NCBI GenBank assembly: GCA_944323655.1
Contig: CALUTL010000011.1
Span: 1-60,443 of the forward strand
Source of the DNA: Candidatus Gastranaerophilales bacterium
Lineage (GTDB): Bacteria > Cyanobacteriota > Vampirovibrionia > Gastranaerophilales > Gastranaerophilaceae
DNA length: 60,443 nt
Reading direction: 5' to 3'
Shown: positions 9,372-24,331 of the stretch, piece by piece
How positions within the stretch are numbered: position 1 is the first letter of the stretch
How the letters are laid out: every line of letters begins with the position of its first letter
Notes under the pieces: model-generated
Seen by the model: only the letters and a program-made list of their open reading frames with translations
Databases searched by the model: none
Told to the model about the DNA's origin: nothing
Made by a program: the position numbers and the translations under genes

Positions 9372-10775
9372 TTGAAAAAGGTTATATCAGCAGCAATTAT
9401 ACTAAGCTTAGCGGTTATTCAAACAGCGCCATGTTTCTGTGTTGAAGCAGCCCAAACGAGCACCGCAACCCCAAAACAATTTAAAAGCATGGTCAAAAAA
9501 GACAAGAAAAATACGAATAATGATTACAAATATGAATATGTAAATCTTGATTGGTGGAGTGTATTCAACGATGACATATTAAAGAGTTACATAGAAAAAG
9601 CCATCATGAATAATTATGATTTAAAGATGGCAACATTAAATGTAGAAGAATTTTATCAGCAGACAAGAATTCAATTTGCAAACGAACTTCCGATGGCAGC
9701 AGTAGGAGGAGGTCCCGCTTTAGTCAAACTGCCGGACAGTACAAGTACAGACGGAGTATTCGGGCTTCCTTTTATAGTAAACTACGAAGCTGATATTTTC
9801 TTAAAGAACCATGACAAAACAAAATCTTCAAAAAAGCTTTACGAAAATTCAAAATTTGACGAACGTGCAGCATATATTTCAATTGCAGGGGCAGTAGGCT
9901 CAACTTATTTGAACATTGTGAATTTAGATAAAGCAATCGAACTGCAAACGGAAATTGTTTCATTAAGAAAAAAAATATATGAACTTATGAAAGTAAGCAA
10001 TGCAGAAGGTTTAACATCGACTGCGGATACAGTAAGAGCAAACAAAGCTTTTGTTAAGAGCGAAACGGATTTAACCGAACTCAACAAACAGCGTGAAATC
10101 CTGATTAACCAGATGTATGTATTGATAGGAGAAAGTCCCGAAAGCGGAAAAACACTTGAAAGGAAAAAGCTTGACGAAATCACATATAATCACACAATTC
10201 CGGATTATATAGAATCAGAAATAATAATGCAGCGTCCGGATTATCTGAAAGCTGAAAACAGTGTTGAAAAAGCAGGAATTGATGTAAGAGTGGCAAAGAA
10301 AGAATTTCTTCCGTCAATTAACCTTACAGGACTTGCTTTATTTAACACAAGCAATATCGGAGATTTATTTAATCTAAGGAATTCAATTTATGCGCTTGGC
10401 GGGGGATTTTTATTGCCGTTGTTCACAGGCGGACAGAAAGTTGCGAATTTAAGACTTAAAAAAGCGACTTATGAAAGGATTCTCCAAAACTACTACAAAA
10501 CTAACTTAACAGCCATTCAGGAAGTTAATGATGCGCTTGTAAAGGTAAGAAAAGACAAGGAAAAAGTCGACCAGACTTTAAAACAGGCAAACCTTGAAAA
10601 AGCGGATTATAAATTTTCCGAAATGAAATACAATGAAGGAACTATCTCCCTGTTGGATTTAATCCAGCAGAAAGAAAACCTGCTTTATATGGACCAGCTT
10701 GTAGCCCAGAATAAAGTGGAATTTATGATTGACTACATCGGTCTTTATAAAGCAACAGGAAGCAAACTACAATAA
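9372..10775 (+). CDS. TolC/NodT-like outer-membrane efflux protein
   Basis: 467 residues starting at TTG 9372, with AGAGG 8 bases upstream. A cleavable signal peptide is visible (MKKVISAAIILSLAVIQTAP, probable cleavage near residue 27). The body has the two-fold repeat of the outer-membrane efflux family: IEKAIMNNYDLKMATLNVEE, and later RPDYLKAENSVEKAGIDVRVAKKEFLPSINLTG. The protein would form the trimeric duct for the adjacent HlyD-DHA2 pump. It is divergent from marR and followed by a strong terminator. The locus is complete for a three-part exporter and supports a two-membrane envelope. Confidence 0.92.
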   Translation: MKKVISAAIILSLAVIQTAPCFCVEAAQTSTATPKQFKSMVKKDKKNTNNDYKYEYVNLDWWSVFNDDILKSYIEKAIMNNYDLKMATLNVEEFYQQTRIQFANELPMAAVGGGPALVKLPDSTSTDGVFGLPFIVNYEADIFLKNHDKTKSSKKLYENSKFDERAAYISIAGAVGSTYLNIVNLDKAIELQTEIVSLRKKIYELMKVSNAEGLTSTADTVRANKAFVKSETDLTELNKQREILINQMYVLIGESPESGKTLERKKLDEITYNHTIPDYIESEIIMQRPDYLKAENSVEKAGIDVRVAKKEFLPSINLTGLALFNTSNIGDLFNLRNSIYALGGGFLLPLFTGGQKVANLRLKKATYERILQNYYKTNLTAIQEVNDALVKVRKDKEKVDQTLKQANLEKADYKFSEMKYNEGTISLLDLIQQKENLLYMDQLVAQNKVEFMIDYIGLYKATGSKLQ

Positions 10776-10811: not shown

Positions 10812-10838
10812 GCCGGTAATTCCCATTACCGGCTTTTT
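10812..10838 (+). terminator. Intrinsic terminator after the efflux duct gene
   Basis: Nine-base stem GCCGGTAAT (10812-10820) and ATTACCGGC (10825-10833) with a TCCC loop, followed by a T run. Confidence 0.9.
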
Positions 10839-10882: not shown

Positions 10883-10957
10883 AAAAAAAAGCCGTCTTTT
10901 TAATAAGAACGGCTACCAGACTTGGGGAGGAGGTATGAAAAACTTTCGTTTTTCATA
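10883..10957 (-). ncRNA. Candidate Yfr1-like small RNA with exposed CU-rich anti-SD motif
   Basis: Read on the minus strand there are three parts in about 75 bases. First comes a perfect 10-bp hairpin, TATGAAAAAC with GTTTTTCATA, closed by a GAAA tetraloop (10957-10934). Next is an unpaired stretch containing CCTCCTCCCC (about 10933-10915). Last is a hairpin of AGCCGT (10914-10909) with ACGGCT (10895-10890) plus inner pairs, followed by a T run (10889-10883), i.e. an intrinsic terminator. Nothing annotated on that strand needs a terminator here. The layout matches cyanobacterial Yfr1: stem-loop, conserved unpaired CUCCUC core, terminator stem. A TATAGA box at 10963-10958 may be the -10. The plus strand instead reads a 20-codon ORF (see rejected items). 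Confidence 0.6.
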
Positions 10958-11054
10958 TCTATATTTTCTTAGACGACCTGAAGAAAAAAATATTTAAAAA
11001 TAATTAACAAATATCCTCCAAATGCAGTAGATTTTATTTTTAGCAAAAATTTGC

Positions 11055-11066: not shown

Positions 11067-11813
11067 ATGAAAGAAAATGAAAGAAATTACGAAGATTTTA
11101 TTTCAACAGTAAGCCACGAATTAAGAACACCTTTGACATCCATCAGAGGATTTGCTCAGACAATGCTTGCATCGTGGGACAAGCTTGATGATGAAAGTAA
11201 GAAGAAATTTTTAAAAATTATTGAAGACCAATCAAACAGGCTGATAAATTTGGTTGAAAATATGCTATCCGCAACCAAGCTTTCTTTAAATAAAGATAAT
11301 CTGATTTTAAAAGAAATTTATATAACACCTATTGTAGAAACAGTTGTACAGGTAGTAAAGAGCCAATATCCGGACAAAAAGTTTACTGTAGCAATAGACG
11401 GCAAAACCCCGCCAATACTTGCAGACAAAGACAAATTCACTCAAATAATCACAAACATTATTGAAAATGCGGCAAAATACGGCGAAGAAAATTCTACAAT
11501 AAGCATAACAACAAATTTTTCAGGCTGTAATAATTTAATATCAACAAAAATTCAAAACACAGGAATCGGAATAGCAGAAGAAGATTACGAAAAAATATTC
11601 ACAAAATTTTCGCGTCTTGATAATCCGCTGACCAGAAAGGTTCAAGGAAGCGGGCTTGGGCTTTATATCACGAAAAATCTGGTGGAAAAAATGGACGGCA
11701 AAATTTCAGTCAAATCAATTCCTGATAAGGACGGGAAATATTTGACAACTTTTGAAATTTTAATGCCTGCAGGAGATGTTGAGAAACAAGCGAGGGCAAA
11801 ATGCAATATGTAA
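11067..11813 (+). CDS. Soluble sensor-less histidine kinase
   Basis: 248 residues consisting only of a kinase core. The HisKA H-box is SHELRTP with phospho-acceptor His17. The ATPase domain has the N-box IIENAAKYG (Asn134), a G1 box NTGIGI (164-169) and a G2 box GSGLGLY (194-200). There is no sensor or membrane domain before the H-box, so it must receive its signal from another protein or be constitutively active. Its last 13 bases overlap the next gene, a receiver protein that is the likely partner. An extended -10 lies 6 bases upstream. Confidence 0.9.
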   Translation: MKENERNYEDFISTVSHELRTPLTSIRGFAQTMLASWDKLDDESKKKFLKIIEDQSNRLINLVENMLSATKLSLNKDNLILKEIYITPIVETVVQVVKSQYPDKKFTVAIDGKTPPILADKDKFTQIITNIIENAAKYGEENSTISITTNFSGCNNLISTKIQNTGIGIAEEDYEKIFTKFSRLDNPLTRKVQGSGLGLYITKNLVEKMDGKISVKSIPDKDGKYLTTFEILMPAGDVEKQARAKCNM

Positions 11814-21500: not shown

Positions 21501-22826
21501 TTACAATAATATTTGAGTGCCTAGGATAATTCTGTGGCTGTCTTCGGTATTTTGATTTTCGCAAAAAACGTAATTCAAAATAAGCCTGAGGGCCTGACCT
21601 TTTATAAAATAATTTAAACCTGCGGTATATTCTCTTCTCAAATCCCCGCTAATATCACGATTCGGGTCAAACTGATCGAAACGGGCCAATATATGAAGTT
21701 TTTGAGTTAATCGGTAGGAAACAGTTGTATAAAAGCCTTCAGCTCTGTTTGAACTGAAATTTCTTCCGTTGTATCCGTCTGCGATTGAATATTCGGCATT
21801 TACGGCAAATTTCTTGTAAGAATATCCGACATAAGCACCGCCGACCGTATAATTTTCATTTCTATGTCCTGCATTCAAGCCGCCTCCGACGACCAAATTC
21901 CCATACCTGCCGTCAGTTCTTCCTAACGGTTTAAAATTCACCCAGCCGGTAAACTCAGGGCCTGCAAAAAATTCATGAAAAAACCTATCAGAACTGTTTA
22001 ACGCCAAACTGTAATCCGCAAGCGAATAATTCCCGACGACACGAACACCTAAAGCCCTTGTATTTCCAAAGTTTCTTGCAATCTGAGAACGAGCGGCAAA
22101 AGGCAAAGTATACGAACTTGCACCACCGTCAACACCTACCTGGTTTCTGGAATTACCGACGATTATCTTATGATGCGGTAGCGAAGTATTCATAATATAC
22201 GCATCAGTTATAAACCCCTGCATAAAATTCTGACCTTCTGTGGATTTAAAATTAAACTGCAATTTAAAATCCGTATTTTTATCTCTTAAACCGCCGACAA
22301 CACCTGCTTCAAAGATATTCAAGTCATACGTTGTATCGTAATCGCTTCCCTCAAAAAATCCGTTAAAATTCCCCTGAAATGCCCCGTAAAATTGAACTTT
22401 TTCAATCGGGCCTTTCTTATACTTAAAAGTCAATTCATCCTGCAAAAGATATGAAGGTATAGAAGTTCTCTCAAGTTTTTTCTTGTAAATTCTTCCAAAC
22501 AAAGACTCTTCTTCAATTTTAAACGGATGATCAGAGGTTTCATCTTTATCAATCAAGTTATCAAAAATTGAAAATTCTACATCCGTATTATCATTAACCG
22601 TATCTTTTTGAACTTCTTTGGCATCATAAGCTTTAATTTCTTCCATCAAAGTTTTTTGAGAGGAATTATCCTTTTCAGAATTTTGAACAAATCCCTCATT
22701 TTTTGAAACATCAAGCATTATGACATCCTGTTTCGGAGTTTTTTTGGAAGTTTTACCCAAAGCCGAAAGACTGTTAAAGGACGTCAAGCATACTAATATC
22801 AGCGCTATTCGCAAAATTCTGTTCAC
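21501..22826 (-). CDS. Outer-membrane porin, phosphate-selective OprO/OprP-like
   Basis: 441 residues with a signal peptide (MNRILRIALILVCLTSFNSLSALG). A polar linker of about 110 residues precedes alternating beta strands with the pattern of a 16-strand porin. Segments such as KVQFYGAFQGNFNGF, FKLQFNFKS, GDLRREYTAGLNYFIKGQALRLILNYVF and a final aromatic or hydrophobic strand match OprO/OprP-type porins. It would take up anions such as phosphate across the outer membrane, which fits the PiT transporter at 43.5 kb. Divergent from the decarboxylase gene by about 60 bases. Confidence 0.8.
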   Translation of the reverse strand: MNRILRIALILVCLTSFNSLSALGKTSKKTPKQDVIMLDVSKNEGFVQNSEKDNSSQKTLMEEIKAYDAKEVQKDTVNDNTDVEFSIFDNLIDKDETSDHPFKIEEESLFGRIYKKKLERTSIPSYLLQDELTFKYKKGPIEKVQFYGAFQGNFNGFFEGSDYDTTYDLNIFEAGVVGGLRDKNTDFKLQFNFKSTEGQNFMQGFITDAYIMNTSLPHHKIIVGNSRNQVGVDGGASSYTLPFAARSQIARNFGNTRALGVRVVGNYSLADYSLALNSSDRFFHEFFAGPEFTGWVNFKPLGRTDGRYGNLVVGGGLNAGHRNENYTVGGAYVGYSYKKFAVNAEYSIADGYNGRNFSSNRAEGFYTTVSYRLTQKLHILARFDQFDPNRDISGDLRREYTAGLNYFIKGQALRLILNYVFCENQNTEDSHRIILGTQILL

Positions 22827-22876
22827 AAATATTAATTATATCATAAAACATATTGAAATTCATGATTTTTTTATTG

Positions 22877-22882
22877 TATATT
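22877..22882 (+). promoter_or_regulatory. -10 box of the decarboxylase gene, leaderless spacing
   Basis: TATATT ends 6 bases before ATG 22889, and there is no ribosome binding site. Confidence 0.45.
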
Positions 22883-22888
22883 ATAAAT

Positions 22889-24331
22889 ATGACAAATGTA
22901 ACACAGACCAGAAAAGCCGTGAAAACCAAAGAGGCGGTAAAAATAAAAGCCCCGATAGTGGAAGCCCTTAAAAGAGCTTACGAAAACCCCACTTATCAGT
23001 TCCACATCCCCGGACACACCAAAGGAAGCGGAACATTACCTGATTTCCGAAAACTCGTTGGTAAAAAAGCATTAGCGCTTGATACGACAGATGAATTTGA
23101 CGGACTCGGCACTTTGCACCCTGCAACAGGCCCGATTAAAGAAGCGCAAGAACTTGCAGCACAAGCTTTTGGTGCAAAAAAGACATTCTTTCTTCTAAAC
23201 GGTTCAACAGCAGGCAACCTTGCTCTTGCAATGGGCTTAACCAAAAAAGGCCAGAGAATTTTAACCAACAGAAACTGTCACAGATCAGTTTTGACAGGAA
23301 TGATAATCTCAGGCGCAGAACCATTATGGCTTATTCCAGAAAGATTTGAAGAATGGGGAATCTGGGGCAATGTTACGCCGGAAAGTGTTGAAAAACAATT
23401 AAAAGAAAATAACGATATCTCAATGGTTTGGATTACAAACCCGACTTATGAAGGGGTTGTATCAGACATTAAATCAATTTCTACAGTCTGCAAAAAGTAC
23501 AATGTGCCGTTAATTGTTGATGAAGCACATGCCTGCTTGTGGAATTTCAACAAACACCTTCCGACATCAGCCCTCAAACTCGGTGCCGATGCGGTAGTTC
23601 ACTCGCTTCACAAAACAGGCGGTTCAATGAGTCAGAGTTCAATGCTTCACATTGCGGAAAATTCTATGCTTGACGTTGAAGCGGTTGAAAAAGCACTAAA
23701 ACTTCTTCATACAACAAGCCCTTCCATAATGCTTCTTGCAAGCCTTGATGCGGCTCGTGCGAACCTTGACAGCCCAAGGGGCCGCAACCAGCTTAATCGT
23801 GCAGTTGAAAACGCTAAATACTTAAGACGAGAAATTGACAAAATGGAGCACATTCATCATTTAAAACCTGATTTTGGTTATATGACGGATGTTACAAAGG
23901 TATTTATAAAAGCCGACGGACTTTCAGGCAAACGGTTAGAATCAATTCTTGAAATAGATTTTAATATAGAAGTTGAAAGCGCTTCGGACGCAGGGCTTTT
24001 GGTTCTTTCAAACATTGGAAACTCACGCAGCGACATAAAATATCTGGCAGATTGCCTTCACAAAATAGATAAGACAAATTATTCCGATATTTGCTATCTT
24101 GAAAAGAAAAAACATATGCCGATGTTAACGCCAATAATCAAAATGAGTCTTCAGGACAGCTTCTATGCACCGAAAGAAAGAATTCCGAAAGCGGAAGCTA
24201 TCGGCAGAATTTCAGGTGAAGTAATCGCTGAATGCCCGCCGGGAATTGCAATTTTACTTCCGGGAGAACTTATAACCGAAGAACATTTGCCGTATTTGCA
24301 AGATTATGAATTTATAGAAGTTTTAAAGTAG
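22889..24331 (+). CDS. Orn/Lys/Arg-decarboxylase-family PLP enzyme
   Basis: 480 residues from ATG 22889; an upstream ATG at 22853 gives an odd hydrophobic extension inside the porin promoter region and is rejected. It is a fold-type I PLP enzyme with the substrate-entry motif FHIPGHTKGSG, the cofactor Asp in DEAHA (Asp211) and the Schiff-base Lys in SLHKTGG (Lys242). The C-terminal domain ends with ECPPGIAILLPGE, typical of the SpeA/CadA-like short decarboxylases. It would make a polyamine precursor (agmatine, putrescine or cadaverine); the substrate cannot be told from sequence alone. Confidence 0.92.
   Translation: MTNVTQTRKAVKTKEAVKIKAPIVEALKRAYENPTYQFHIPGHTKGSGTLPDFRKLVGKKALALDTTDEFDGLGTLHPATGPIKEAQELAAQAFGAKKTFFLLNGSTAGNLALAMGLTKKGQRILTNRNCHRSVLTGMIISGAEPLWLIPERFEEWGIWGNVTPESVEKQLKENNDISMVWITNPTYEGVVSDIKSISTVCKKYNVPLIVDEAHACLWNFNKHLPTSALKLGADAVVHSLHKTGGSMSQSSMLHIAENSMLDVEAVEKALKLLHTTSPSIMLLASLDAARANLDSPRGRNQLNRAVENAKYLRREIDKMEHIHHLKPDFGYMTDVTKVFIKADGLSGKRLESILEIDFNIEVESASDAGLLVLSNIGNSRSDIKYLADCLHKIDKTNYSDICYLEKKKHMPMLTPIIKMSLQDSFYAPKERIPKAEAIGRISGEVIAECPPGIAILLPGELITEEHLPYLQDYEFIEVLK

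Follow-up and report, generated by a model that had tools for sequence, protein, structure and literature searches.

A conserved small RNA of Gastranaerophilales and Vampirovibrio-type Vampirovibrionia with a Shine-Dalgarno-complementary core and a sigma-28-type promoter

The small RNA (sRNA) Yfr1 is a repressor that pairs with its targets at ribosome-binding regions (PMC6974561), and its gene adjoins guaB and/or trxA in most genomes (PMC2190773). Yfr10 carries the same exposed motif as Yfr1 and has little else in common with it (PMC6778093). In Campylobacter jejuni, CJnc230 (FlmE) acts as a repressor via a 12-nucleotide (nt) single-stranded anti-Shine-Dalgarno (anti-SD) stretch at ribosome-binding sites and is mainly RpoN-dependent, and CJnc170 (FlmR) is a FliA-dependent sRNA (PMC11187230). 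Sigma-28-dependent sRNAs have also been described in Escherichia coli (PMC10578931). Here, we computationally analysed a 60,443-nt stretch of a Candidatus Gastranaerophilales bacterium genome (contig CALUTL010000011.1), from now on referred to as the window, and focused on a short element on its minus strand at 10883-10957. This CUCCUCCCC sRNA represents a real and previously undescribed RNA gene family of Gastranaerophilales and Vampirovibrio-type Vampirovibrionia and is most likely a trans-acting anti-SD repressor belonging to the sigma-28 regulon.

The sRNA gene, its fold and its family

The minus strand of the window from 10957 to 10883 reads UAUGAAAAACGAAAGUUUUUCAUA-CCUCCUCCCCAAGUCUGGU-AGCCGUUCUUAUUAAAAAGACGGCUUUUUUUU and is arranged as a 10-base-pair (bp) GAAA-loop hairpin, followed by CCUCCUCCCCAAGUCUGG and, finally, a terminator containing eight U residues. 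Both the GAAA hairpin and the terminator stem are contained in the predicted fold, which reaches -20.8 kcal/mol compared with an average of -9.05 for shuffled sequences (z = -5.0; equalled by 0 of 200 shuffles). This confirms the preliminary description of the locus, which had placed a GAAA-capped hairpin, a CU-rich stretch and an intrinsic terminator within 75 bases. The exposed core, ACCUCCUCCCCAAGUCUGG, had also been called unpaired, which holds for its C-rich half; within the core RNAfold draws a weak 3-bp pairing.

Using blastn with 131 bases as query, homologues were found in 52 of 59 relatives. Their core is nearly invariant, reading ACCTCCTCCCC(A/G)AGTCT(A/G)GT(A)GCCG between a genome-specific hairpin and the terminator (CCUCCUCCCC(A/G)AG in the members read), and most of its positions are 95-100% identical among 154 Gastranaerophilales-type members. 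A covariance model of the element recovered copies from almost all genomes of the family to which the window belongs, and also from further families of the order, with E<=1.4e-10 in all family f1 genomes listed except G011 and G332. Weaker matches, recognisable on reading, were obtained within the class in families f39 and f44; here the core is AACCTCCTCCCCAAGTCACGCTACCG or AACCTCCTCCCCAAATGATGGCGCTG, and the hairpin and terminator on either side of it have new stem sequences. A stretch of 14 nt, AACCUCCUCCCCAA, is near-invariant and common to Gastranaerophilales-type and Vampirovibrio-type members. The proposed check with a model of the element in Vampirovibrionia thus returned homologues with a near-strictly conserved CU-rich stretch. 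A broader model including the f39 and f44 members recovered copies in genomes missed by the first; three near-complete relatives that have FliA (G011, G016 and G332) gave no clear copy even with this model and are possible cases of sRNA loss. The covariance-model search did not find the RNA in families f8, f9, f40, f41, f42 and f43, and those matches in Cyanobacteriia, f8, f9 and f40 that were read were dismissed as chance terminators. It should be noted that most genomes compared are metagenome-assembled.

The core pattern matches 114 stretches of named public genomes, and the matches listed belong mostly to Candidatus Gastranaerophilales, Vampirovibrio sp. and uncultured gut bacteria; matches in Bacteroides and Hyphomicrobium lack the flanking structure and were dismissed as chance. 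Two f39 sequences match Vampirovibrio sp. records. Some genomes carry variant or tandem copies, the latter each with their own promoter and terminator. Rfam 15 gave no gathering-score match for the window RNA, only a tRNA being matched in the window, and the best sub-threshold match, PyrR (31.3 of 54 bits), was taken as coincidence. A full-text literature search turned up no regulatory small RNA of Melainabacteria/Vampirovibrionia.

The structure of the sRNA is under selection. A folding energy of -5 kcal/mol or lower is reached by 93% of 152 distinct 5' segments compared with 13% of dinucleotide shuffles, and 76 distinct stems are represented; as each stem was defined from the fold of the sequence itself, percentages of paired bases are biased upward, the energy contrast being free of this bias. 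Since hairpin length varies, MAFFT with RNAalifold is unsuited to this element and loop-anchored counting was used instead. In 30 distinct loop-aligned hairpins, selected for a 4-base loop, 87% of cells pair compared with 55% after shuffling and 29-48% when one side is slid, a shift of the partner by one giving 48%. Double-changed cells number 90 compared with 29.7 in column shuffles (0/500), and all eight pairs have changed on both sides, although these counts are not independent events because the sequences are related. The anticipated covariation is therefore strong in the 5' hairpin. Further, the terminator stem changes in concert between groups, from AGCCG/CGGCU to CUACCG/CGGUAG.

The sRNA locus is intergenic, with an outer-membrane efflux gene on one side and a histidine kinase gene on the other; outside close relatives, the genes neighbouring the sRNA are not conserved. 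Its features are as follows:

10883-10963, minus strand: predicted sRNA transcript of about 75-81 nt, based on fold (z = -5.0) and conservation (blastn, covariance model), with the 5' end placed from the promoter
10934-10957, minus strand: 5' hairpin UAUGAAAAAC-GAAA-GUUUUUCAUA, variable in sequence with pairing kept among members
10910-10934, minus strand: conserved core ACCUCCUCCCCAAGUCUGGUAGCCG, whose final 5 nt are part of the terminator stem; most positions 95-100% identical
10883-10914, minus strand: intrinsic terminator AGCCGUUCUU/AAAGACGGCU plus U8, from sequence and fold; stem changes in concert between groups
10970-10996, minus strand: sigma-28/FliA-type promoter TAAATATT-N11-GTCGTCTA, matching TAAAGTTT/GCCGATAA at 10 of 16 positions
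11009-11023, minus strand: operator-like box ATTTGGAGGATATTT abutting the -35 element, with a matching box at fixed distance in other members
9372-10775, plus strand: outer-membrane efflux gene (OEP/TolC-like), convergent neighbour; neighbourhood not conserved
11067-11813, plus strand: histidine kinase gene (HisKA, HATPase_c), divergent neighbour, present as such in close relatives only

A strong terminator of the efflux gene at 10812-10833 (+) faces the sRNA terminator, about 50 bases beyond it. In another genome (L046, G050:C16:4500-8300), three tandem sRNA units, each running from promoter to terminator, lie near 1490, 1852 and 2214 with a spacing of 362 bases.

A sigma-28-type promoter and its sigma factor

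The pattern TAAAGTTT-N11/12-GCCGATAA is the textbook FliA promoter. It is found upstream of the hairpin in most members of the sRNA family, and a match to 11 or more of the 14 consensus bases is seen in 108 of 159 members compared with 30 of 795 shuffles (3.8%). The boxes mostly lie 30-40 bases before the core, which would place the transcription start at the base of the hairpin; in the window, the boxes at 10970-10996 point to a probable start near 10960-10965, slightly upstream of 10957. Across 17 genomes the pattern has 46 occurrences, with none when it is read backwards, and it also precedes other genes, thus defining a genome-wide promoter class. A FliA/WhiG sigma factor is encoded in genome G000 (TIGR02479, 243.8 bits with a cut-off of 189.6). 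Every RNA-bearing lineage tested has FliA above cut-off, with G055 showing a fragment only, and the scores stay below cut-off in f8, f42 and seven Cyanobacteriia, all of which are without the RNA. Like the E. coli sRNAs described in PMC10578931, the RNA would be a member of the sigma-28 regulon; those sRNAs are derived from untranslated regions, whereas here a stand-alone gene has its own promoter and terminator. Very well conserved, covarying, with a 14-nt near-invariant core in two groups and tied to an alternative sigma factor, the RNA offers a tangible starting point for work on how common gut bacteria exert post-transcriptional control.

A box similar to ATTTGGAGGATATTT abuts the -35 element in 61 of 153 members (~40%) compared with 2 of 153 shuffled sequences, and is perhaps an operator or a site for an activator. 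Exact sigma-28-type promoters were located in G000 at C1:265751, C5:103445, C6:78974, C10:59545, C16:26532 and C18:23727 (L121, L136, L147, L178-L180). The products of the genes that follow are without Pfam families, for example MALNVYNQNYKLGIDTSVLKQVS..., MVDAISGNYG... and a conserved open reading frame of about 45 codons (MYRYTIWPG...), and may constitute a FliA-type regulon of uncharacterised proteins.

Anti-Shine-Dalgarno core and possible partners

The core contains ACCUCCU, identical to the usual anti-SD at the 3' end of 16S rRNA, and in 46 window genes the translation starts are better pairing partners for CCUCCUCC than is the coding sequence of those genes (p=7e-6). We infer that the locus is an independent gene whose product, a trans-acting, sigma-28-transcribed sRNA, represses as an anti-SD RNA, a reading to which we assign a probability of about 0.62. 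RNA polymerase carrying a FliA/WhiG-type sigma factor would transcribe the sRNA from the sigma-28-type promoter, and its two hairpins, the covarying one at the 5' end and that of the terminator, would protect the ends and leave ACCUCCUCCCC(AAGUC), the core, unpaired. This single-stranded stretch most likely binds selected mRNAs at their purine-rich ribosome-binding sites, which would block translation of these targets while the sigma-28 programme is on. Because tests of pairing at translation starts were mixed, support for this reading comes from the sequence of the core, from its exposed position between two hairpins and from how other RNAs of this layout behave. CJnc230 and CJnc170 differ from the RNA described here in that they are unrelated in sequence, come from a different phylum and have known targets in C. 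jejuni. The fallback of the preliminary description, a new anti-SD RNA, is supported.

A number of observations weigh against this reading. The full 16-nt core separates starts from coding sequence no better than do shuffles that preserve its composition, and its CCCCAAGUCU half has no preference for the starts of the 46 window genes. Near-complete complements of the core (TTGGGGAGGAGGTT, 3 mismatches) are not enriched in G000, numbering 133 compared with 138 for the reversed pattern, and searches of G000 and the window genes did not find a conserved target. Conservation of the core extends further than blocking of a Shine-Dalgarno (SD) sequence alone requires. The sigma-28 promoter is degenerate in the window's own genus (10/16 match), and f9, f40, f41 and f43 have FliA although the RNA was not detected in them, so that sigma-28 does not imply the RNA.

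Conservation running past the SD-complementary part into CCCCAAGUC, together with the unenriched complements and the indifferent CCCCAAGUCU half, would fit a core that is not an mRNA-pairing seed and instead serves as a protein-binding or decoy site, either for a single-strand RNA-binding protein or as a sponge for another RNA. We consider this improbable, as the 5' half of the core is exactly SD-complementary and prefers translation starts, the closest studied RNAs of the same layout, Yfr1 and CJnc230, pair at ribosome-binding sites (PMC6974561, PMC11187230), and a second RNA of the same genomes, described below, has CUCCUCCC as well, in otherwise different flanks.

Candidate targets of the anti-SD RNA were sought individually. 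GGGGAGG before ATG is not clearly more frequent in G000 than the reversed pattern, and a recurrent GGGGAGG match looks like 23S rRNA; on both grounds, no targets were called. The suggested pairing with a porin-like leader near 22826 fails since this leader has no SD, and the best pairing within 22601-23000 (-11.4 kcal/mol) is unexceptional, being matched or exceeded by 37% of 400-nt windows. The leader of FliA itself pairs modestly in G000 (-11.6 kcal/mol), such pairing was not seen in the two f39/f44 genomes, and it is not claimed as a target.

Relation to Yfr1 and other readings of the locus

The preliminary description had likened the element to Yfr1, and in layout the resemblance is real: the 5' hairpin, exposed CU-rich segment and terminator are all present, in agreement with the Yfr1 layout of a 5' stem-loop of 6-10 bp, 16-20 unpaired nt, a GC-rich terminator hairpin of 6-9 bp and a U tail, an architecture common to other sRNAs as well. 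Both RNAs have CUCCUC within the exposed segment and near-absolute conservation of the core; Yfr1 measures 54-69 nt compared with about 75-80 nt here. Membership in the Yfr1 family is rejected on Rfam score, undecamer, synteny and promoter type. The Yfr1 model RF01116 (curated gathering score 38 bits) does not list the window element at E<=10, returns no match above cut-off when 34 Vampirovibrionia genomes are scanned under lax filters and leaves other members of the sRNA family unmatched, whereas a control locus scores 69.2 bits. In the opposite direction, the sRNA-family model reaches 8.1 bits at best on Yfr1 loci, which is chance level. The Yfr1 undecamer ACUCCUCACAC is absent from the sRNA, whose corresponding core is AACCUCCUCCCCAAG, and Yfr1 loci read ACTCCTCACAC. 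The guaB/trxA synteny is missing here, the neighbours in the window being the OEP and HisKA genes, and the promoter is of sigma-28 type, whereas the Yfr1-bearing genomes tested are without FliA above cut-off. Finally, the sRNA was found only in Vampirovibrionia and has tandem copies and variants in some genomes.

With membership rejected and only the letters CUCCUC shared, independent origin of the sRNA and Yfr1 seems more likely at present. Alternatively, the sRNA could be a diverged Yfr1 orthologue inherited from the common ancestor of the photosynthetic and non-photosynthetic lineages, with core and promoter changed. The same order of parts, similar size, 5' hairpin and common CUCCUC in the exposed segment (PMC2190773) would agree with this, as would the occurrence of Yfr1 in Cyanobacteriia and of the sRNA in Vampirovibrionia without co-occurrence in the genomes sampled, as would be expected of orthologues. 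Orthology nevertheless seems unlikely: neither model scores the other RNA, a shared six-letter word is expected of any anti-SD RNA, synteny and promoter type differ, and no intermediate was seen in f8, f9, f40-f43 or the few genomes of other classes sampled. It is similarly doubtful that both RNAs descend from one anti-SD RNA older than the separation of Cyanobacteriia and Vampirovibrionia, with the promoter rewired between sigma-28 and housekeeping types upon loss or gain of a flagellar-type sigma factor. If true, the sRNA lineage would predate the split of the photosynthetic and non-photosynthetic branches, as the preliminary description had proposed for the case that the two are related; with Yfr1 membership failing, this is not shown. 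The family does permit a comparison between sister groups that addresses whether inheritance or re-invention accounts for Yfr1.

That the locus is a leader, attenuator or coding element, or that its minus-strand stem is merely a terminator for the neighbours, is very improbable and largely refuted: the plus strand does contain GGGGAGGAGGTATG followed by a 20-codon frame, with a strong SD and ATG at 10924-10937, but the hairpin varies freely with compensation and also in length, the ATG is gone in many homologues, the frame starting inside the hairpin is not kept, leaving no sign of the conservation by plus-strand codon position named earlier as a possible refutation, neighbours are not conserved and each tandem copy comes with a promoter and terminator of its own.

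The second CUCCUCCC RNA is located at G000:C1:86180-86270 (+) (L379, G000:C1:85500-87000) and reads CCCCAAAUCUCCUCCCAAGAUUAUU plus a terminator, with the core CCCCAAAUCUCCUCCCAARAUUAUU. Neither it nor its orthologues show evident sigma-28 boxes or are in Rfam. As orthologues exist in other genera (L357, L365, L366, L369, L370, L376, L381, L382 and L384), the lineage keeps at least two CUCCUCCC RNAs. By analogy, the pair is reminiscent of Yfr1 and Yfr10, the second RNA paralleling Yfr10, although motif and lineage are different and the sequence relation to Yfr10 was examined via Rfam only.
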